A stretch of 64,000 nt of DNA from NCBI GenBank assembly GCA_905160935.1, contig CAJHZI010000513.1, positions 1,885,001-1,949,000 on the forward strand. Reading direction: 5' to 3'. Shown here piece after piece: positions 3,030 through 61,886 of the stretch. The translations under genes were made by a program, and so were the position numbers. Source of the stretch: Enchytraeus crypticus. Lineage: Eukaryota; Annelida; Clitellata; Enchytraeida; Enchytraeidae. The notes beneath the pieces are model-generated. The model saw nothing but the letters and a program-made list of their open reading frames with translations. It was not told the DNA's origin and ran no database searches. The first letter of the stretch is position 1, and each line of letters opens with the position of its first letter.

Positions 3030-3200
3030 GCCAGGATTCAATATTGGGGGGGGGGGGAACTATAATCTTTCGGGCTCTTTGGAGGAGGCACACACTTTAT
3101 AGTAGGTAAGCACTAATATTTTCGACATAAAAGTTTTTACAAGTCACTTTGGGTGGAGCACATGACCCATTCTGCCCCCCCCCCTCGCTACGCCACAGCC
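3030..3200. repeat. G12/C10-containing repeat piece
   Basis: A run of twelve G at 3046-3057 and a run of ten C at 3175-3184 bracket about 120 bp. The C run is followed by CTCGCTACGCCAC, a word I associate with repeat remnants in marine invertebrate genomes. The exact family is not recognised. Confidence 0.45.
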
Positions 3201-3817
3201 AATGAGGTTAAGTTGACAGAAATATTGCTGGAAAAGAAAGAGAAGAATTAGCTAACAATTATCTTAACCAGATAAAAATTTAATGAATGCAATAACGGTT
3301 TCATATAAAACATGGCATTCAATTTCCATTCTTCCATTCTGCTGAATTACACGTACAAAACAAACAGTAACTAGTAGATCTAATTTGATACAAAAGAAAT
3401 TTTTTTTAGGTACATGTAGATCTAATAATATACACAAAACAAATGGTTGATAGATAGAATGATAAGTTGAAAAGATCGTCTATTCAAACGTGTTTGTAAA
3501 GTATAAAAAAAATTTAATTTAAAAAAAAACATATTTTAATATAAAGCTTTTAAAAAATTTTCAATAATAGTGCTACCGAAAGTCTGCTGAGATGCTTCAA
3601 GAATTCCCACTAGAATCTAACAGGGATTTTTAAATTCTTCGGAAATAATGTTGAAGTTAATTCGTTTTTCAAGGAAAATTATGGTCAATATTCTAGACCA
3701 GTAATGAAAGTTCATTTCACAAAGCTATCCAAAACAATTATTCAGAGTAAATCAAAACTTGTTTAATATTAACAACTGACCACCTACAAGAAATGATGCG
3801 TCACGTTCCATTTTAAT

Positions 3818-6797: not shown

Positions 6798-9700
6798 CTA
6801 AGTGGCCATCGACATTGCCCTCTTTCCAGCCATACCTCCCTGTGAAGCCTTCTTCTCCCCCTCTCTCCTCTTTTCCGTACCCACCTCCCCTGCTGCACCC
6901 GCAACTGACATGCTACCACCTTGGGAACCCTTCTTACCGCCCGAGGCAAATCTCTGGCGCAAGTGTGCGGCGAATGAGTCGCCCGAAGTGTTGCGGGATT
7001 TCCCGGTCTGGTCAGCCCCTGATGGGCGGCGTTTCCGGTCGAGCTCAGCCGGGTCTCTGACAACGATGACAGGGCACAGGGCGTGACCCACGACGTAGTC
7101 TGAGACTGACCCGAGGAAGGTTCTCTGGACCTTACCCAGAGCCCGTGTGCCAGTGATGATCAGCGCAGCCTGCTCCTGCTCGGCTATGGCACATATGGTT
7201 TCACCAGGTCTGCCGGCTACAGTACGCAACTCACCGGGCACCTGCCACAGTGAATGAACACGACTTGGTAAGTCTACTGGCAGATAACTTAACATTACTT
7301 GGCAATTTTAGAATTTACCATTATTTAGCAATGCTGAGTCTGGGCCACTGAAGTAAAGACTATTGTTAATGCATGTGTGGAAGAGGCCTAGTCAATCAGT
7401 ACCTGAGGAATGTAAAGTGGAACAGTCTTAGAAATCACACTTTTCAGAGTAAAGGCTGGAATAAGATGGCTGGATGGACTAAGATAGATGAAGGCAAAAC
7501 CTTTCAGAAGAAGCCAAGCGTTGGTAGATGGGGGCATCAAACAATGATGCCTCCATCATTGCAATGAAAGAGGCATCATTTAATGATGGAGACATCCTTA
7601 TAAATAAATATATCATCATATCAAAATATAAATGTCATTAATGATAAATTATTTAATTATAAGAAATTAATTTAGGAATAAGGCAGTCAGAAGCTTCCCA
7701 AGTTGTGTCTGAGACACTTCAGACTTGATGCCTCCATTTTTTCTATCATTACAACAGATTTTATACAAAATAGTTACACATGAGCTTACACATACAATAT
7801 CAAGAAATACTGTATGTACACTGATTCTACAGCATATGCAGTTACAAGAAGTAACATTAAGATTAAAGAATAAATGATATCTTCAATTCTTAAAGTCATA
7901 TGACAATCAAACGAGAGAATTAACGCAAGGCATTTGGCATTGACCAATCTCAAAGATCAGTCAATCAGACAGCGACCCTAGATTACTTACTGTATGCTTT
8001 AGCTTTGTTGTAAATCAAACAATCAATGAATTTTTTTTTTATATTTAAAGAATTAAAACTGGTCTCCTAAGACCAACCATTAATTTTGTCCTGACAGTCT
8101 AAAAGTATTCTTAACTAAAGATAATGCAATGATTACGTTTAGGTTGCACAACGTAAATAATTTCAACTTCTTTATGAAGCCGTTTTAAAGTATATATTAC
8201 TTATTTTAGGTTTCTCTGTTCTAGTCTAGTGACTAAATAATTGAACTAGTTCGAAGGGCTTAGTCCGATTCAGCCTGCGGATACAATGTTGTTGGTTAAG
8301 CAGTTGAAGGGCTTGCGGATTGATGTGATGACTGAGTTGGTCTTGATGTCTTGTTGCCGAGTTTCTTATTTCTTCTACTACCAGGGGTATTTTCAGATCA
8401 CAATGAATATCTTTATTTCTGAAGTACCAAGGAGCATTTACAATGTTTCTTAACACCTTATTCTGGAACGTCTGGATAATCTTAGTATTAGATGATCTGG
8501 TACAGCCCCAAATTTGACATCCATATAGCCAGAATAAACAATGAATGAAACACAAGGCATGACAGCGGGCCTACCTGTTTAGCAGTGAGTAATTCCTTCA
8601 TCTTGGTCTCCAGAGCTCTGGTCTTTGCATCATCAGGCTGCCACATGGTTGCTAGACCTGTAGGGGAGGCCTGGCTGTCTCCTAGCAAACAAACAAATAA
8701 TCTGTGCGACTATGCAGTAGTATTGTGACACTCAAATCCACAAGCCAAGACAAACAACAAATTTATTTAAAACTACATATTGGGACAGAGCCACAGCTTT
8801 TACAAAAAAGCTGATGTTAACGTCTGTTTCCTCACTCGAAAGTGATGTCAGTGACAGGTGAGCCCAGGATTTGAACCCAGCACGTACTGATCTGCGGTTG
8901 AATATCTTGTACAACGAATTGACTAGTTGGCTGAATCGATAGAAAGCTTTCCTGACAAAAAGTAGGCCATCGGATTGATTCCCAGCTGGAATGTCTCTGA
9001 GAGTATCCCTTGTGATACAGAAAAGGACATTAAATTGAGCTATATGGCTTGTGAAGAATTCACAGGCTGAATCCCACTGAAGAACTAGGCCCAAAGAAGC
9101 CCGGATAGGTGGACGATTCACCATATTATCTGACATGAAGCTAGGCAGCTATGAGGTGTAAGCTGGATATACGAGACCAGCATTTCAATTTTTTCGGACA
9201 CAAAATGATCTCAGGACTGCTACTAGCCACTTGAGATTATAGACAGCAATTTACTCATCTTCAAACAAGATTGAGCACCTCACCAACAATGACACCCATC
9301 AACAGTGATGATGTTACGAGAAAGTTTCTTGCTTAAAAATCTTGAATACTTAGACCAACCAATAGTGTCAATCCTGTAACGGTCGCAGACACAACTTGGC
9401 ATTGTGAAGCCTGTTATTATGTGTATTTTGTCGTATAGTGTTTATTTTACTGTTTATAATTTTTTAAATATAGAGAAGCCCTTGCATGACATTCACTATT
9501 AATATTACATCTGGTATTATTCATGTAGCGGACTATCTAACTGAAGATGATTATTTTAAGCAGGTGATTTAGACAATTATTGAATATGCAATAAGGTAAT
9601 GGAGCATGAGGTAATTGATTATGTTATGGTATTGCCTGTCTAAATCCAGAAAATAGAGAGTTTTGGTATATGATACGCTATCAAATATCGAATATGATTT

Positions 9701-11594: not shown

Positions 11595-14500
11595 CGAGCA
11601 AAGCTATTGAGTCAACTATATAACTTAGTAAGTTACAATATGCATGGTTTTAATCAAGGCATAACTATGTTAAAATCAATATGCAATAACTATATGGCTG
11701 ATGTTATATTCCTGCAGGAATACTGGTTGACTCCTGATCAGTTAAATAATTTTAATTATTTCAATGATAAATATGTGGTGTACAGTTCTTCGCCAATGGA
11801 AAACACTTTGAAGAATAGTATTTTACGTGGTCGTCCTTTTAAAGGTTTGGCCGTTCTGTTAGACTTTATATTATGTAGCTTATTTAATTCAGTATCTGTT
11901 TTTGCATGTGAGGATCGTTATATGCTTGTGGCATTAGATCAGTTATTATTAGTTAATATGTATCTTCCTACTTGTAAAACGGCAGTGGAGCGTGACGAGT
12001 TGGAGTTAACGTTCAGTAGGTTAGAGTCCGATATAGCAGGAATTAACTATAGCTATGCAATAATAGGGGGTGACATGAATTGCAATTGGTTGAAGACGAA
12101 TACTCAATCCACAATTATTAATGCTAGATTTAATAGCCTAGGCTTTGAGTTGTGTAATGCACATCTTGAGACTCCTAGTGAAGTTATGTATACTTTCGAC
12201 GTGGAGAAGCGCAATGCTTATTCATACATTGATCATTTTCTTGTCAGTAATGTTAATATGAGATTTGTTACTATTAATGATTTTGACAATCTGTCTGATC
12301 ACTTTCCAGTTCTATTGAACCTCAGGCGTGAAGCTATTGTGCCATGTATTGTTAATAATTTACCAGCAGTGAATGACATTAGCACTTCCACTCCGAATGT
12401 TAAACTCAATCTAGATTGGGTCAATTCTAATAAAGCAGAATACTATAAAATGACACGAGAAGAATGTTACCCGTTATTCTTGTTACTAAATGAAACTGAT
12501 ATTAACCGGTTTTATGATAGTAGACCTGAGTTATTTGATCAATCATCTATTAATAACGTTTACAATGAAGTTGTTACCGTATTATACAATGCTTCTATGA
12601 AAACTATTAAAAACAGAGATAAGAAAGGGGTCAAAAAATTTTGGTGGAACAGTTCTTTGACTGAGGTTAAGGGTTATTCCGCTAAACGGTTTAGTGAGTG
12701 GGAAAAAGCTGGGAGGCCCAATGAAGGGCCTTTATATGATGCTAAGCAGAAAGCTCATAAGGATTACAAGAAAGCTGTCAATCTTTCTAAAATCAATTCA
12801 ACTAAAATAATATCTGATAAATTACAACAACAGCTTTTAGAAACGAATGTCAATAATTTTTGGAAATGCTGGAAGGGTCATTTTAAAAATAATAATACTT
12901 TCAATAGAATAAAGGTTGATGGCTTTCAAAATAATCGTGACATTGCTAACCACATAGCAATAATTTCAAATCTGCTTGTACACCAAACTCTGAAATATTT
13001 CATAATAAATTTAAAGAGACATACGAAAAACAAAAATTGGTATATACTTCCGAAGCAAATGATGTTGTTATCGATGTAAGATCCTTGGGAAATGCTATTA
13101 ATTGTCTTGAGTTAAATAAAGCTGCAGGTAGTGATGGTCTGATGATCGAACATTTGTTGTATGCCCATGAATCTGTGTTGATAATAATTAAAACGCTCTT
13201 CAATATAATGCTTCGCACTGGACTGGTTCCCGACGCTTTTGGTATCGGTAGAACTACACCTATACCAAAATTCAAAGGGTGTAAAAGGGTCGTCTCAGCT
13301 GATGATTTTAGAGGATCACTATATGCCCCGTCATCTCCAAAGTTTTTGAACATAGTATAAAAAAGTTCATTCAATTACCAACTTCAAGTGGGCAGTTTGG
13401 TTTCAAAGATAAGGTTGGATGTATTAATGCAATACATGCCGTAAGAAAGGTCATAAAGTATTTCAATGTCAAGCTTAGTACTGTCAATGTCAATTGGCGT
13501 AAAGCATTTGACAAATGTAATGTTTATGGCATATTACATATGCTTCAATGTAGAAAAGTAAATGCATGTATCATTAATACTCTTGAAAATTGGTTCAGCA
13601 AAAATAGTACAACTGTAAATTGGGCTGATTCTGTATCGGATTGTGTCCAACTGCTATCGGGAGTTAAACAAGGTGGGGTTCTTTCACCTTCTTTGTTTGC
13701 CCTTTTTGTTGACACAGTTTTAGACAAATTAGAAGCTTCTAAATTAGGTTGTTTCATAAATTATAACTGTTATAATAGTTTTATGTATGCAGATGATCTT
13801 ATTTTATTGAGTATCTCTGTCACTGATCTTCAGAAATTATTTAATATTTGTGACATGGCTTTTACAGAGTTAGATTTACCAATAAATGTATCGAAATGTC
13901 ACTGTATGCGCATCGGTCCTAGGCACAATTTTCAGTGCAAGCCATTTCAAATTAGAGATACTTGTATTAATTGGGTGGATAGTAGCAAGTATTTGGGAAT
14001 AAATATTTTAAGAGCTAAATCTTTTAAATGTGATTGGAAAGACAGTAAATGTAAATTTTATACTTCAGTAAACACTATACTGGGGAGACTTGGAACAAAG
14101 GTGCATATTGATGTTTTATTAAAATTAATATTCGCTCAGGCGGTGCCGATCTTACTCTATGGCATTGCGCCCTCCGATTTGTCCTCTTCTGAATTAAAAG
14201 ACTACGTATGTGTATAACAGTATTTTCTTTAAAACATTTAAATCTTATGATAAAAATGTTGTACTGAATTGTCAATGGTATTGTGGTTTCTGGCCATTTG
14301 AAATATTATTTGATTTTCATAGGTATAACTTTTTGAGTAAATTAATTGCCTGTAATCAGTTAAATGATAAAATAGAAGTAGACAATTCTGACTATTTGGA
14401 TTACAAAGTTTTAAAAAATAAATATGCACTCCAGACAAAAGATTCACCAGCTGTGACTCGGTTTAGGTTTTGGTCATATTTTGAAAGTCTAGTTTTAAAT

Positions 14501-33469: not shown

Positions 33470-33605
33470 GAATGGCTAAGGCGTAGTCTTTGTGAAGGGA
33501 TTAACTTGGTGATCTAAGGAATGCTCTTACGGAGAGAGAAAGCAGACTTTGAGTATGATTATGTACCTTGAACCTGCCACTTGGCAGAGCACTGAAGAAG
33601 AAGAC
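33470..33605 (+). mobile_element. LINE 3'-end relic (family L3, subtype b)
   Basis: GGCGTAGTCTTTGTGAAGGG, ATTAACTTGGTGATCTAAGG, GTACCTTGAACCTGCCACTT and GGCAGAGCACTGAAGAAGAAG match 52800-52945 and 53335-53460 block for block. They share the final ACCTGCC..GGCA..GCACT with the L3 fragments at 24-27 kb. Confidence 0.75.
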
Positions 33606-37695: not shown

Positions 37696-37757
37696 CCTGG
37701 CAGCATCCTTGGATGAGGAAACGGACGTTAAACCTTTATTGTTATTAGAATTATTAA
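37696..37757 (+). mobile_element. SINE tail (S1, subtype b)
   Basis: GCATCCTTGGATGAGGAAAC GGACGTTAAACCTTTATTGTTATTAG: the S1 tail with the subtype CATCCTTGGATGAGG hairpin and a (TTA)-type end. No head is present. Confidence 0.75.
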
Positions 37758-42540: not shown

Positions 42541-42604
42541 CCTGACATCATCCTTGAATGAGGAAGCGGAGATTGAACTTTTATTATTATTATTATTATT
42601 ATTT
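42541..42604 (+). mobile_element. SINE tail (S1, subtype b) with (ATT)n
   Basis: CTGACATCATCCTTGAATGA GGAAGCGGAGATTGAAC then TTTTATTATTATTATTATT. Same tail and same simple-repeat end as the copies at 37.7 and 44.2 kb. Confidence 0.75.
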
Positions 42605-44243: not shown

Positions 44244-44328
44244 TGCTGTGTCCTGAGGGGACGTCCCTGACATCATACTTGGATGAGGAAACGGACGTTC
44301 AACCTTTATTATTAATATTATTAACGTC
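44244..44328 (+). mobile_element. SINE 3' part (S1, subtype b) with (ATT)n
   Basis: GTCCTGAGGGGACGTCCCTG ACATCATACTTGGATGAGGA AACGGACGTTCAACC then TTTATTATTAATATTATTA. It includes about 25 bases of body upstream of the tail, which also appear complemented in the 50.1-kb copy. Confidence 0.75.
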
Positions 44329-49262: not shown

Positions 49263-52200
49263 ATGAAGAGAAGATTGGGCTCAGAGGCGCTGATGATGAA
49301 TTCGGCTGATGAAGAGAACCGTCATCCTGGTTTGAGCTCGACTGACTGTGCAGAATTCTACAACAGTGAGCTTAAGTCGGAACGTAGAAAGGTTTGACTA
49401 AGCGATTGACTGATTTAGTTCTCTGCAGTAGGTTCATTGAAAAATTGACTTCCATCATTCAATTAAGTGCATTTAATTGATTAATTGAATCATTAACTTC
49501 ATCTGAAATTTGTAAATAAATTTGATATACAGCATTTAATTTTATATATATGAACTTATTAGTTAGATTCTCTCTTTCCTTATCCCTCTCTTTCTTTAGC
49601 CACTGTTCTGACAAGTGGCAGGTTCAAGGCACATATTTTTCCTAACAATTTTCCTTACGCTCAGTAACAATTACACAGCGGTGACAAACATTAGATGCAA
49701 TCACAAAGCTTAAACCTTTTCAAAACTTTAATTTATGTAGCGTTATCTTGAAAAATGCTTCTGAGGTGGTTGAATTTCTTTTCACAGTTTCAGCTTAGTT
49801 GCCTCTTGCCACTTGTGCTTTTTACGGTTGGTATATTTTGTACCAGCTCGAACATAATGGAACATTTAAACAGCGCTGTTGTATAGTTTAGTTCTATCAT
49901 AAAGCAGGAATTATGGTGCCAAATATTGGCATTCACTGTTTTTTGATTGGTTGATTGATTGATTGATTAATTGTTAGATACGTAAGGTGATAGTGGAGAG
50001 AAAGAGAAGAGAGAGAATCGACAGGTGTCTAGATCAGCTTAAACAATATCTGCAGGAGTCACACTCTGTGAGTAGAATATTATTATTAATAATAATAAAG
50101 GTTTAACATCCGTTTCCTCATCCAGGGATGATGTCAGGGACATCCCCAACAGCACACATCACTACAGATCAATTCTGCCAGACCAATCTGCAAAAGAAAT
50201 GTGCTGAAGAGAAGCACATTTCTTTTATCACATTTATCATATTGCTTGTTTATCTCCTACTATATTATTTTTCTTTAATATTAATCTGTTTAATTATACT
50301 TGAGTCTTATTTATATTAATTATTAATATTTTGTTACTCTTATATATCATATTGTTTAGGCTATTTTATGTATCGTAAAATTATTACTAAATAATAATGG
50401 TAGTTAAATTTATTTATTCAAGGTATTTAAATTTACTTCAGAGAATAATAAAAGGAAAACAATTAGTAAACGGTGCTAAGTACAATGAACTGTAAAGTAA
50501 TTCAGCACCCCTTTAAAAAGCATGCATTTTGTCCCCCGGTAATAATTTCACGTCGTTTTCTCCACCCCAGCCATTCCCCTCTAGTAAACTTTCCTTCAGA
50601 GAAGGTACTCGAAACATTAACGTATCTCAGTAGCCACTATTAAGATCTGCATTAGATTATCTTAATAGCGAATATTTTTAGAATGTCTTAATGTATATTG
50701 ACGTATATGATGCATATAATGTATGCGTATAATGTATATTGACATAACGTAGGGGTAACGTCATGTAGTTTTAAATGACAGATTCTAAGTTGAATTGAAC
50801 CCTCGTTGGTTCGAATCCATGCCGCGCTGATCTGGGAGTAAAATCTCAGACATTCACTGGGCTGGTTATGTGGATAATGGTCTAAATTGTCTAACGGTGT
50901 TAACATGTAGTATAATTAAAAGTTCGAATTTAAATTCTTTTTCCATTAGCAGCTACAGAAGCTGTAGCAGCTGTTCCAGCCTGCTGCTCATTGAGCTGAG
51001 CGTGCATCTTTTTAATCACCTCTCGCGTCTGGTTTATCTGAAAGATTTAAAAAAATCAGATTTATTATAAACTTAGAAAGTTATAGATATCAACACAAAA
51101 TTGATCATTTCACTATAATGCATGTATACTTTACTGTATGTTATGTCTGTCGCAGCCTGGAGATCAACCGCCCAACCTTGAGAAGGCAGACATCCTCGAG
51201 CTGACCGTAGATCACCTGAGATTACTGCGCGCTCGTCGTCTCACTCACAGAGCTGCCGGGTTCAAGGCATGCGCTCGTGAAGTTAACAACTTCTTGGCTA
51301 ACTCCCGGCTGGACGATCAGGTGAGGCAGAGGATGATGCAATACTTAGCCTCACGTCAGACCTGCCTCGTGGCTTCAGAGGAGCTCAACAGCGAGAACGA
51401 CTCCTCTGTGGCAGTCCAGCACAAGGACGGGTGTGGTCAACAACGAGGTTTGATGAGTCCCAGCCAACGTCGAGACGCTCTGACTCAGCCTCGAGAAATA
51501 CTGGGACAGCATAGAGAGGGATTGAACCAGGATATCGTAGGGCTGAATCATAATTCTGATGTCACTGATAGGAATGCGCTGGGATATCGCAACATGTTGA
51601 GTAGAAATATAGCAGGACAATACAATCCAGCCACAATATCCGGTGTGGTAAACAATCCGCTAGCGATCAATGCGAATATATTAGCAACGTCTTCGACAAC
51701 GAACAGACGGAGAGCTGATGAAGTTTTTAAATTTGGTTTATCGAACACGTCAGTAAATGTCTCCGCTCAGTGGGTTAACAGTAATCAGGTAGGCGGAAAC
51801 GAATCTTCGGTTGTTCCAATTACAGAGAGATTCAGAAATCTAAATGATATTCCTGTTTATGGCTCATCCTGGTCACTTCCAGATTACTCTCATCTCAGCA
51901 TGTGCAGCAGTAGCTATGACTCTACATCTCCTCCTCTCCCTAAATTATTTCAAACAAAGGCCAAGATTATTCCCGTAGAGGTCATCCAAAGGTCACGCAG
52001 CGCCGGTACACCGGAAGAAGTTCAGTCGTCAGACATCGATACTACGTCATCCGGTGACGTAAGTATGCTGTCGCTTAGCAATACTGACACGTCACACAAG
52101 TCTTCGGTTGCCCTGGAGATCAGTCACGACTGTGACATCACGAAGTCGTCAGGGGTCGACGTGGAATCATTCAGTGAGGAACGAGAGGAGGGCGAGATGT

Positions 52201-52268
52201 TGAAAGAAGGGTATGTTAGAGTAAAAGCAGAGCCGGTAGACAATGGAGACATGTGGAGACCCTGGTGA
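49263..52268 (+). CDS. HES/Hairy-type bHLH-Orange transcriptional repressor
   Basis: Coding exons 49263-49391, 49978-50067 and 51156-52268 (all phase 0, GT/AG) give 443 aa. The 5' UTR part of the first coding exon probably starts at 49152. Domains: bHLH at about 44-100 (RKVIVERKRRERID basic region and helix 1; LEKADILELTVDHLRLL helix 2), Orange at about 107-142, Ser/Thr-rich middle, a VKAEP sumoylation-like site near 430, and terminal WRPW. It should be a nuclear DNA-binding repressor that recruits Groucho/TLE through WRPW, usually downstream of Notch. The family's basic-region Pro is Val47. Introns inside the basic region and the loop are as expected for the family. Assignment to a single vertebrate HES orthologue is not possible. 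Confidence 0.95.
50078..50165 (-). mobile_element. SINE 3' part (S1, subtype b), minus strand, in HES intron 3
   Basis: Starts ten bases after the exon's 5' splice site: (TTA/AAT)n, then AAAGGTTTAACATCCGTTTC CTCATCCAGGGATGATGTCA GGGACATCC. It is the reverse complement of the family tail with its simple-repeat end. Confidence 0.8.
50930..51037 (-). CDS. Candidate terminal exon antisense within HES intron 3
   Basis: On the minus strand a textbook 3' splice site (TTTTTTTAAATCTTTCAG, AG at 51039-51038) opens a 35-codon frame ending at TAA 50932-50930. It reads INQTREVIKKMHAQLNEQQ, then an Ala-rich AGTAATASVAANGKRI. The amphipathic helix followed by a small-residue tail looks like a genuine protein C-terminus. 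Upstream exons would have to lie beyond HES exon 4 on the opposite strand, or the piece may be a relic. Family not recognised; a link with the Ala/Thr-rich minus-strand gene at 58-62 kb is possible but unproven. Confidence 0.4.
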   Translation of the reverse strand: MNQTREVIKKMHAQLNEQQAGTAATASVAANGKRI

Positions 52269-52452
52269 TGGATTCCACCAGTGGATTGTGGTGAAATGTG
52301 GAGACCCTGGTGATGTATTCCAACAGTGGACTGTGGAGACATGTGGAGACCCTGGAGATGGATTCCGCCACTGGACTATGGAGAAATGTGGTGACCCTAG
52401 GGATGGATTCCACCAGTAGACTGTGGAGACATGTGGAGACCCTGGGGATGGA
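52251..52452 (+). repeat. 45-bp minisatellite copying the HES WRPW-stop codons
   Basis: Five units begin at 52251, 52296, 52341, 52386 and 52431, exactly 45 bp apart. The first unit is the end of the HES CDS: ATGTGGAGACCCTGGTGA encodes MWRPW-stop. Units 2, 3 and 5 retain ATG TGG AGA CCC TGG; unit 4 is mutated (GTGACCCTAG). The stop after unit 3 has become AGA, and after unit 5 GGA. The rest of the unit is TGGATTCCACCAGTGGACTG. Confidence 0.97.
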
Positions 52453-52459
52453 TTTGTCG

Positions 52460-52522
52460 TAATAATAATAAGAAAGGTTTAACGTCCGTTTCGTCATACA
52501 AGGATGATGTCAGGGAAGTCAT
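52460..52522 (-). mobile_element. SINE tail (S1, subtype b), minus strand, HES 3' UTR
   Basis: AATAATAATAAGAAAGGTTT AACGTCCGTTTCGTCATACA AGGATGATGTCAGGGA, right after the WRPW minisatellite. Insertion at, or next to, the array end. Confidence 0.75.
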
Positions 52523-52799: not shown

Positions 52800-52945
52800 C
52801 TAGACTTTGTCATAAGGCATAGACTTTGTGAAGGGATTAACTTGTTGATCTAAGGAGTGCTCTTATGGAGCGATAAAGCGGACTTTGAGTATGAATATGT
52901 ACCTTGAACCTGCCACTTGGCAGTGCACTGAAGAAGAAGAACCTA
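52800..52945 (+). mobile_element. LINE 3'-end relic (family L3, subtype b)
   Basis: Matches 33470-33605 in GACTTTGTGAAGGGATTAAC, GATCTAAGGA, GACTTTGAGTATGA and ACCTTGAACCTGCCACTTGG CAGTGCACTGAAGAAGAAGA. Confidence 0.75.
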
Positions 52946-53334: not shown

Positions 53335-53500
53335 AGGCATAGACTTGTGTTAGGGATTAACTTGTTGTTCTAATTAGTGCTCTATATGGAGCGTGAAAGC
53401 AGACACGAGAGTATGAACATGTACCATGAACCTGCCGCTTGGCAGAACATCAGAGAGAGAGAGAGAGAAGAGAGAGGAGAGAGAGAGAGAGAGAGAGATC
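53335..53500 (+). mobile_element. LINE 3'-end relic (L3 subtype b) with (GA)n tail
   Basis: GCATAGACTTGTGTTAGGGA, ATTAACTTGTTGTTC and ACCATGAACCTGCCGCTTGG are followed directly by (GA)n at about 53451-53500. Another case of an L3 end running into a dinucleotide microsatellite. Confidence 0.75.
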
Positions 53501-58463: not shown

Positions 58464-59540
58464 TCAGGAGCTTCTATATACACTGTTTGTAGCCAGTGTT
58501 GTTGGCCTTTTGACTGCTGCAGCAGCTGTATCACTGGCAGCAGAGGAGTCAGCAGGTGCTGCAATAGACATAGCTCGATCAGCAACAGACCCCACAGCAG
58601 CTGAGGTAGCAGCTGCTACAGAATTACCAGCAGCAGTTGAACACTTGCTCACATTAAGAGGCGGGTTTGAAGTAGCTGCTACACTGGCATTAGGAACTGT
58701 ATTAGAGGAAATAGAGCAATTGAGAGTTGAGGTATAGAGAGCACGGCCTACAGGGGCAGTTGAGTTATCAGCAGCAGCTGCTGTTAAAGAGATTTTATTG
58801 TTAGCTGTAGTACCGGTGCAACCAGCAGCAGAACTATTGATAGTGACAGTTACACCAGTTGTATGAGGAGCTGTGGTAGGAATAGCTCTGGAAGCAGCTA
58901 CAGCTATTGAACCAGCTGTATGAGGAGCTTTGGTAGGATTAGCTCTGGTAGCAGCTACAGCTACAGAGCCAGCTGTATGAGAAGCTGTGATAGGATTAGC
59001 CCTGGCAGCAGCTGCAGCTACAGAACCAGCTGTATGAGGAGCTGTGATAGGATTAGCTCTGACAGCAGCTACAGCTAGAGAGTCAGCTGTATGAGAAGCT
59101 GTGGTAGGATTAGCTCCGGCAGCAGCTACAGCTAGCGAACCAGCTGTATGAGCAGCTGTAGTAGGATTAGCTCTGGCAGCAGTTACAGCTAGAGAGCCAG
59201 TGTTCACGGCACCAGTACATTTAGCAGTAGAAGTAGTTGAATTACATGCAATGCTAGCAGTAGATTTACCACTATAAGCAGTCGAAGAGTGAGAAATAGT
59301 AGTGGTAGAACTATTAGCATCAGCTGCTGTAGCTTTAGCAGCAGCTGCACCAGTATCTGTTGTATCAGCAGCTGTTGTGTCAGCAGCTGTTGTATCAGCA
59401 GCTGTTGTATCAGCAGCTGTTGTGTCAGCAGAATTATCTGAAATAGAGTTAAGATGACGTTGTTGTTGTTGTTCACCAGCAGAGTCAGAGCTTATCTTGC
59501 GGGATTTCTCCGGATTAAGTTTACTCAATGCTGTCAGCTC
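58464..59540 (-). CDS. Ala/Thr-rich repeat exon (terminal exon of an unknown gene)
   Basis: A 3' splice site (GATTGATTGATTGTAG, AG at 59542-59541; the TAG is itself an in-frame stop, so the frame needs splicing) opens 358 codons ending at TGA 58466-58464. It begins ELTALSKLNPEKSRKISSD, has five ADTTA units (15-bp DNA repeat, about 59340-59425) and six 19-residue units of the type TAGSLAVAAARANPTTAPH (57-bp repeats, about 59200-58855), then Ser/Ala/Thr-rich sequence with scattered Cys. The unbroken frame through GC-rich repeats argues for selection. It could be a mucin-like or low-complexity protein. No catalytic domain is visible. Function unknown. Confidence 0.6.
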   Translation of the reverse strand, partial: ELTALSKLNPEKSRKISSDSAGEQQQQRHLNSISDNSADTTAADTTAADTTAADTTAADTTDTGAAAAKATAADANSSTTTISHSSTAYSGKSTASIACNSTTSTAKCTGAVNTGSLAVTAARANPTTAAHTAGSLAVAAAGANPTTASHTADSLAVAAVRANPITAPHTAGSVAAAAARANPITASHTAGSVAVAATRANPTKAPHTAGSIAVAASRAIPTTAPHTTGVTVTINSSAAGCTGTTANNKISLTAAAADNSTAPVGRALYTSTLNCSISSNTVPNASVAATSNPPLNVSKCSTAAGNSVAAATSAAVGSVADRAMSIAAPADSSAASDTAAAAVKRPTTLATNSVYRSS

Positions 59541-60900: not shown

Positions 60901-61886
60901 GATTCCTTTTATTTATTCTTGAGTTCAAGAGCTGGAAGGCGTTAGAAATTACTAAGAGAAAGACTGGTAGCGTATGTGAGAGGCCACTATTTCCATGTTC
61001 TCTTAAACTGCCAGGCTCAATACAAATATTCCTACTCACACTCTGCTTTCTCGCTCAGTAAGAGCACTCACTGATCTTGAAGTTGATCAAATCACAAATG
61101 CTAAGCCTTTATCACAAGAAAATATAGGTTTTGAGGTTGTTCCACATTGCATTCCGCTGTTCATTGCTCTTAGGACACGTGCAATTTAAGGTTGGTCTAT
61201 TCTGTAGTGGCATGGAAGGATACTACAGAATATAGAATATACTCTAGGGAGTATATGCCGTATTATATAATATTGTATATTATAACTAATGTCTTAATAA
61301 GAAAAATATTCTTAACATAATATCAATTACCGATACACAAAATTTAAATGGTTAGAAATGAAAATAATAAAATTAAATTGAAACAGAGTTTTGTTTACTT
61401 TCAGGTTTCTCATATTCTTTCAGGGAGGTTATATTTTCTATTCAGACCTAAAGTTGTTTTATGCTGTTATGCTACTTGAAAGAAAGTAATCACACATACG
61501 TAACTAACAGCTAGGCAAACACTACGAATACTTAAAATTAGTATCAATTATTTAACTAACAAAATATTAGACACCATTTTCTCGAATTGTAGCAAAACAA
61601 TTGACATTAGGATATGTATTGTATTCTCTATGTTAATCAAAAATTGTTTAATGTTTTTGAAGCTTTTTAAAAAAACAAATGAATTTTATCAGATAGTAGG
61701 TCTACGTACAAGTAGTAAGTTATATGAAAGGTCCACAGTTAATTGCTAGAGTTAATTACTACAATATATAATTGTAAAAGCTGTTATCGTGAAATCTTAC
61801 GGCATGAAATTAAGAAATTAATCTAAATCTAATACAAGCAGTAAAACAGCTAGCATTCCGTAGTTTGAGAGCTCGTAAAACCTTAC

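Follow-up and report, generated by a model that had tools for sequence, protein, structure and literature searches.

A 45-bp minisatellite across the stop codon of a HES-type gene in Enchytraeus crypticus carries copies of the gene's WRPW end

The HES-type gene and its paralogues

The window analysed here is a 64,000-nucleotide stretch of the Enchytraeus crypticus genome. It contains a HES-type gene on the plus strand, for which a splice model drawn from the sequence gives three coding exons at 49263–49391, 49978–50067 and 51156–52268. The coding part of exon 1 is followed by a GT donor after AAG, exon 2 holds the basic region and helix 1, and exon 3 holds helix 2, the Orange domain and a tail ending in VKAEPVDNGDMWRPW-TGA. 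All exon borders are GT/AG, both introns are in phase 0, and the first ATG has an upstream in-frame stop. The spliced protein has 443 residues, with a bHLH domain (PF00010, E = 1.5e-10, 41.1 bits against a cut-off of 20.7) followed by an Orange domain (Hairy_orange, PF07527, E = 4.5e-9, 36.9 bits against a cut-off of 25.3). The best PDB sequence match to its first 155 residues is HES-1 (2mh3, E = 5.8e-9); a PDB match to gp41-5 was taken as chance (E = 0.00019 for the whole sequence, about 3 for each stretch alone). The protein ends in DMWRPW, with the TGA ending at 52268. In the basic region encoded by exon 2, alignment to HES-1 places a valine where the HES-1 sequence SKPIMEKRRR has proline. 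This proline is typical of HES proteins and is not obligatory, and the DNA-binding preference of the valine-bearing protein may differ.

The bHLH and Orange domains and the C-terminal WRPW are common to this protein and the HES repressors described previously (PMC4172395; PMC3396596). Several human HES genes described there have introns of phases 0-0-1; the two introns here agree with the first two of these, and the third, phase-1 intron is missing from the gene model. In contrast to the HES repressors of those reports, this gene has a tandemly duplicated end. The WD40 domains of TLE are reported to bind WRPW and EH1 motifs, and bound factors to be degraded via FBXL14 (PMC13308096, preprint). 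On that basis, an additional motif might in principle influence repression as well as turnover.

A search of the 524-Mb genome with the Orange domain, in which all ten candidates were scored, gave five matches: the HES gene itself and four paralogues (loci L007 to L010), a count that is a lower bound since relatives without an Orange domain are invisible to it. Paralogues L007 and L010 end in MWRPW-stop. In L008 and L009, which we take to be HEY-like, YRPW is followed by 13 and 6 more residues, respectively, showing that members of this family can have a related motif a few residues short of the C-terminus. A six-frame scan of 7–9 kb around each paralogue found one such motif per locus and no second one. 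The stop of L008 is followed after 16 bases by an unrelated 31-bp × 16.5 array (3173–3695 of that locus), and that of L010 after 104 bases by an unrelated 39-bp × 2.8 array. No array of period 10 or more was found close past the stop of L007, where there is only a 4-base repeat, or of L009, where there is none. The idea that such arrays are a general HES trait was rejected, the WRPW-type array being missing from all four paralogues found.

A tandem array at the end of the gene

The end of the coding sequence forms part of a 222-bp tandem array on the plus strand (52233–52454). TRF reports it at 52244–52454, with 4.7 copies, 85% matches, 0% indels and a score of 317. With head-to-tail units of 45 bp, it is a minisatellite by unit length (about 10–100 bp). 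Five units start at 52251, 52296, 52341, 52386 and 52431, all in the HES frame. An initial reading of the sequence alone had proposed that the MWRPW-stop end of the HES protein is the first of five 45-bp units, and the exact 45-bp period without indels bears this out.

Unit 1 (52251–52295) is the gene's own end, MWRPW-TGA, and unit 2 (52296–52340) repeats MWRPW-TGA, making it the sole intact backup end. Unit 3 (52341–52385) reads MWRPW-AGA, so that the stop position is sense. In unit 4 (52386–52430) the motif is lost and two new stops have appeared (MW-TGA-P-TAG-GGA), the stop position again being sense, and the truncated unit 5 (52431–52454), in which matching ends at 52454, reads MWRPW-GGA. 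The first six codons of the five units therefore encode MWRPW-stop, MWRPW-stop, MWRPWR, MW-stop-P-stop-G and MWRPWG. MWRPW is thus present in the same frame in four of the five units, as had been proposed, and these copies (units 1, 2, 3 and 5) are the only places in the window at which a six-frame scan detected W[RK]PW or [FWY]RPW. The stop position runs TGA, TGA, AGA, GGA and GGA; three stops have decayed to sense codons, not the two counted earlier.

The four full units differ pairwise at 5–8 of their 45 bases, and 12 of the 45 unit columns are variable, with changes private to each full unit. The last 42 bases of the array (52413–52454) match 52233–52274 at 90.5%, which places the start of the duplicated segment inside the coding sequence, at the PVDNGD codons. 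The segment thus comprises PVDNGD-MWRPW-stop and about six bases of presumed 3′ UTR. The units are in register with the MWRPW codons at 52251, as in the sequence-only reading; the repeat itself begins 18 bases earlier, at 52233.

As a tandem repeat, the array exceeds chance. A pattern of WRPW codons, T-purine-purine and a second set of WRPW codons 28–40 bases on matched twice in the 524-Mb genome, both times within the array, and its reversed form did not match. A DNA search of the same genome, which skips simple repeats and very common words and scores the best candidates, matched the array once. Membership of a dispersed family was rejected on this single match and on the position of the neighbouring dispersed element, which begins only after the array. 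In two further collections, neither aimed at animals, no relative was confirmed among 11 stretches (viral_contigs) or 41 stretches (genome_contigs). An antisense open reading frame across the array (52216–52497, 93 amino acids) was rejected as a gene candidate, having no Pfam match up to E 0.01; it stays open since the unit length is divisible by three and the unit has no stops in that frame.

Repeats and other features of the window

Minisatellites are common around the HES gene. When all 107 TRF rows were merged and the best-scoring row was kept (period 10–100, length 80 bp or more, so that two repeats, of period 142 and 108, are excluded), 14 other arrays of at least 80 bp were counted, covering 5.6% of the window. 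By the same rule, coverage is 0, 7.4, 5.8 and 8.3% at L007, L008, L009 and L010, respectively. The period is divisible by three in nine of the 14 other arrays, and seven of the 14 have 0% indels, so neither the reading frame nor the indel-free state is special to the WRPW array. In a genome so rich in minisatellites, chance alone would be expected to place some arrays across stop codons. Two long arrays at 152–827 and 1871–2311 have units of 21 bp × 32 and 24 bp × 18, and the former yields open frames on both strands (489–899 plus, 525–887 minus). A 354-residue frame rich in Ala and Thr (58464–59528, minus) holds a 57-bp × 6.1 array and a 45-bp/15-bp array; Pfam returned nothing for it up to E 0.01.

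Dispersed repeats also occur. One copy starts six bases past the last base of the WRPW array (52460–52520, plus), and four other places in the window match it at 85–89% (50084–50140; 44260–44320, 42541–42595 and 37696–37747, the last three on the minus strand). These elements start near TAATAATAATAA and include TTTAACGTCCGTTTC-like sequence; one copy thus lies in intron 2 of the HES gene and one just past the array. A second dispersed repeat of about 90–130 bp, 76–92% identical between copies, is found at 52813–52940, 53335–53445, 33477–33604 and 61026–61117 (minus), twice downstream of the HES stop.

Among the remaining features, LINE-like remains on the plus strand comprise an endonuclease (PF03372, E = 1.1e-9, 11607–13076) and a reverse transcriptase (PF00078, E = 2.8e-15, 13540–14214). 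The frame at 6798–7292 (minus) matches the universal stress protein family in its C-terminal part (PF00582, E = 4.2e-17, profile positions 83–141 of 141) and continues into a long tail rich in Lys and Gly. No tRNA was found in the window.

Consequences for the protein end

The consequences of stop loss, readthrough and unit deletion were worked out in silico. All eight sense substitutions of the first stop yield a protein that ends in WRPW. One readthrough adds 15 amino acids, X-WIPPVDCGEMWRPW, and again gives a WRPW end, while two add 42 amino acids and end in DYGEMW at a stop in unit 4, and three add 44 amino acids with no WRPW end. Deletion of one unit keeps the WRPW end at all 178 of 178 possible start points; for deletions of two, three and four units the corresponding figures are 99 of 133, 54 of 88 and 9 of 43. 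Both frameshifts that were tried upstream, deletions of one and two bases, abolish the WRPW end. The backup is therefore one step deep in silico, the second stop being the only working one, rather than there being four. The proposal that the protein would still end in WRPW after readthrough, stop change or unit deletion holds when one stop is lost, when one readthrough occurs or when one unit is deleted, and fails for a second readthrough and for many of the larger deletions.

Origin of the array and selection on its spare copies

The account that we consider most likely, and quite probable, is neutral growth of a minisatellite across the stop codon, with a one-step buffer as an incidental result. 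A stretch of roughly 45 bp covering the close of the HES coding sequence (the PVDNGDMWRPW codons, the TGA and the first following bases) would have been duplicated in tandem, and could then have grown to about five copies through ordinary minisatellite slippage or unequal exchange. Judging from the frame, unit 1 alone would be translated under normal termination. The units past it, 2 to 5, fall in the presumed 3′ UTR and show decay, with WRPW lost from one and sense codons at three stop positions. With a period divisible by three and an intact unit 2, the array provides the one-step safety net seen in silico.

The main alternative is that the second WRPW-stop has been kept by selection as a buffer or for recoding, since the Groucho-binding end would otherwise become internal after readthrough or stop loss; under recoding, the readthrough isoform would bear WRPW both internally and at its terminus. 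We regard this as unlikely. It draws on unit 2, which retains both motif and stop so that readthrough adds exactly 15 residues and a WRPW end, and on the retention of MWRPW in three of the four downstream units against a mean of 0.97 of four in an independent-site simulation. That simulation, run on units 2–5, gave 4.7% for MWRPW and 11.4% for WRPW alone. The MWRPW core is the sole 15-base circular window intact in three of units 2–5, and over all five units its 15 bases include two variable columns, a minimum shared with the circular windows that start at unit positions 43 and 44.

Further comparisons set the core against the rest of the unit. Relative to the unit consensus, 2 of 75 MWRPW core positions and 13 of 129 other positions are changed (Fisher p = 0.056); by column, 2 of 15 core and 10 of 30 remaining columns are variable (p = 0.28). 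When columns were permuted over all five units, at least four intact units were obtained in 853 of 20,000 permutations and at most two core changes in 2,065 of 20,000. Unit 1 is better omitted because it is under selection as the real end, and with units 2–5 only the intact-unit value was reached in 1,966 and the core-change value in 3,997 of 20,000. These tests all treat related units as independent; their values range from 4% to 28%, with two at 4 to 5% and the others at about 6 to 28%. The comparison of WRPW codons with the rest of the unit, which the sequence-only reading had put forward as a check, is thus borderline and varies with the test, and the motif has been lost from unit 4.

The kinds of change speak against selection. 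The 15 changes in all units relative to the consensus comprise 4 synonymous, 7 non-synonymous and 4 to stop, against 25, 99 and 11 among all possible single changes, and four synonymous changes among 15 do not clearly signal constraint. Two of the four changes to stop correspond to the TGA that units 1 and 2 carry as their stop, which is scored as a change because the consensus has G at unit position 16; TGA is probably ancestral at this position. Taken together, the evidence on selection at the spare copies is equivocal and leans to neutral.

Functional readthrough is reported for an animal transcription factor, Vvl/Dfr (PMC8417969). Among stop codons, UGA is described as equalling or exceeding UAG in its tendency to be read through, and as exceeding UAA (PMC7764779). 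The most frequent readthrough context is given as UGA-C (PMC6655844), and UGA-CU is described as leaky (PMC4207609). The stops here are TGA-TGG (stop 1) and TGA-TGT (stop 2), so that UGA-UGG matches neither. Structure-aided readthrough was rejected, as the array folds no better than its shuffles: its RNA fold has z = 0.50, with 147 of 200 shuffles at least as stable, and the stretch from stop 1 onward is ordinary too (z = −0.32; 70 of 200). Unit 4 is destroyed, which likewise speaks against selected buffering. In the fly Glass gene, a conserved readthrough form is reported to be dispensable in the laboratory (PMC6655844). Of the two readings raised earlier, neutral slippage is a better default than selected buffering; the in silico results uphold a one-step buffer, and a selected function for it is unproved.

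It is still less probable that the array is a regulatory element of the 3′ UTR, in which RNA or DNA motifs recurring from unit to unit adjust how stable the HES mRNA is or how well it is translated, with the coding content as a passenger. Its position just past the stop, the similarity of its units and their GC content of 53% in a window of 35% would fit such a role. However, exon 3 ahead of the array is already at 49% GC, so the composition is largely inherited, the fold is ordinary, and Rfam gave no match at gathering scores in the window. Tandem repeats are prone to mis-assembly, which could have lengthened or shortened the array, but a copy number produced by assembly artefact is very improbable for an array of merely 222 bp whose variable columns and private changes in every full unit argue that the copies are not one stretch re-used.

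Relation to known systems and significance

Like coding and 3′ UTR minisatellites, the array has head-to-tail copies and slightly diverged units and lies in an array-rich region. Unlike ordinary minisatellites, it spans a stop codon, and its unit carries a whole functional C-terminus together with the stop. In the titles and abstract openings of the open-licence papers listed, no stop-spanning tandem array of this kind was found, and a search of that literature gave nothing on WRPW combined with readthrough. The arrangement, in which a minisatellite includes the terminal motif and stop of its own host gene, is real, tidy and uncommon.

Two further systems offer parallels. Tandem backup stops are described in yeasts and ciliates, where, as here, readthrough is made less costly by a further stop in the same frame (PMC1088959; PMC6879139). 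Those stops lie within a few codons and limit length only, whereas the backup stop of the HES gene comes 15 codons later and re-creates a terminal peptide motif. In the yeast and ciliate reports the key evidence is conservation across species, and here there is one assembly. In LDHB and MDH1, a short C-terminal motif, PTS1, lies in frame past the first stop, as WRPW does in the HES gene (PMC4207609). Readthrough of those genes adds a new motif at a leaky UGA-CU, while any readthrough here would repeat the same motif, at UGA-UGG.

A bolder reading, which we think doubtful, is that the array is a selected, self-renewing C-terminus, whose in-frame copies of motif and stop would, with low-level readthrough, give a HES isoform with two Groucho-binding motifs. 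If this were true, stop loss, readthrough or slippage would each re-create a WRPW end. Slippage across a stop codon offers a gene a simple way to gain a spare copy of its C-terminal motif and stop. Even under the neutral growth that we favour, the array is a clean natural case for following how a terminal motif and a stop decay when freed from selection or are held by it, and how new C-termini may come from duplicated old ones and not from the 3′ UTR, to be compared with the stop-loss extensions described elsewhere (PMC4494051).
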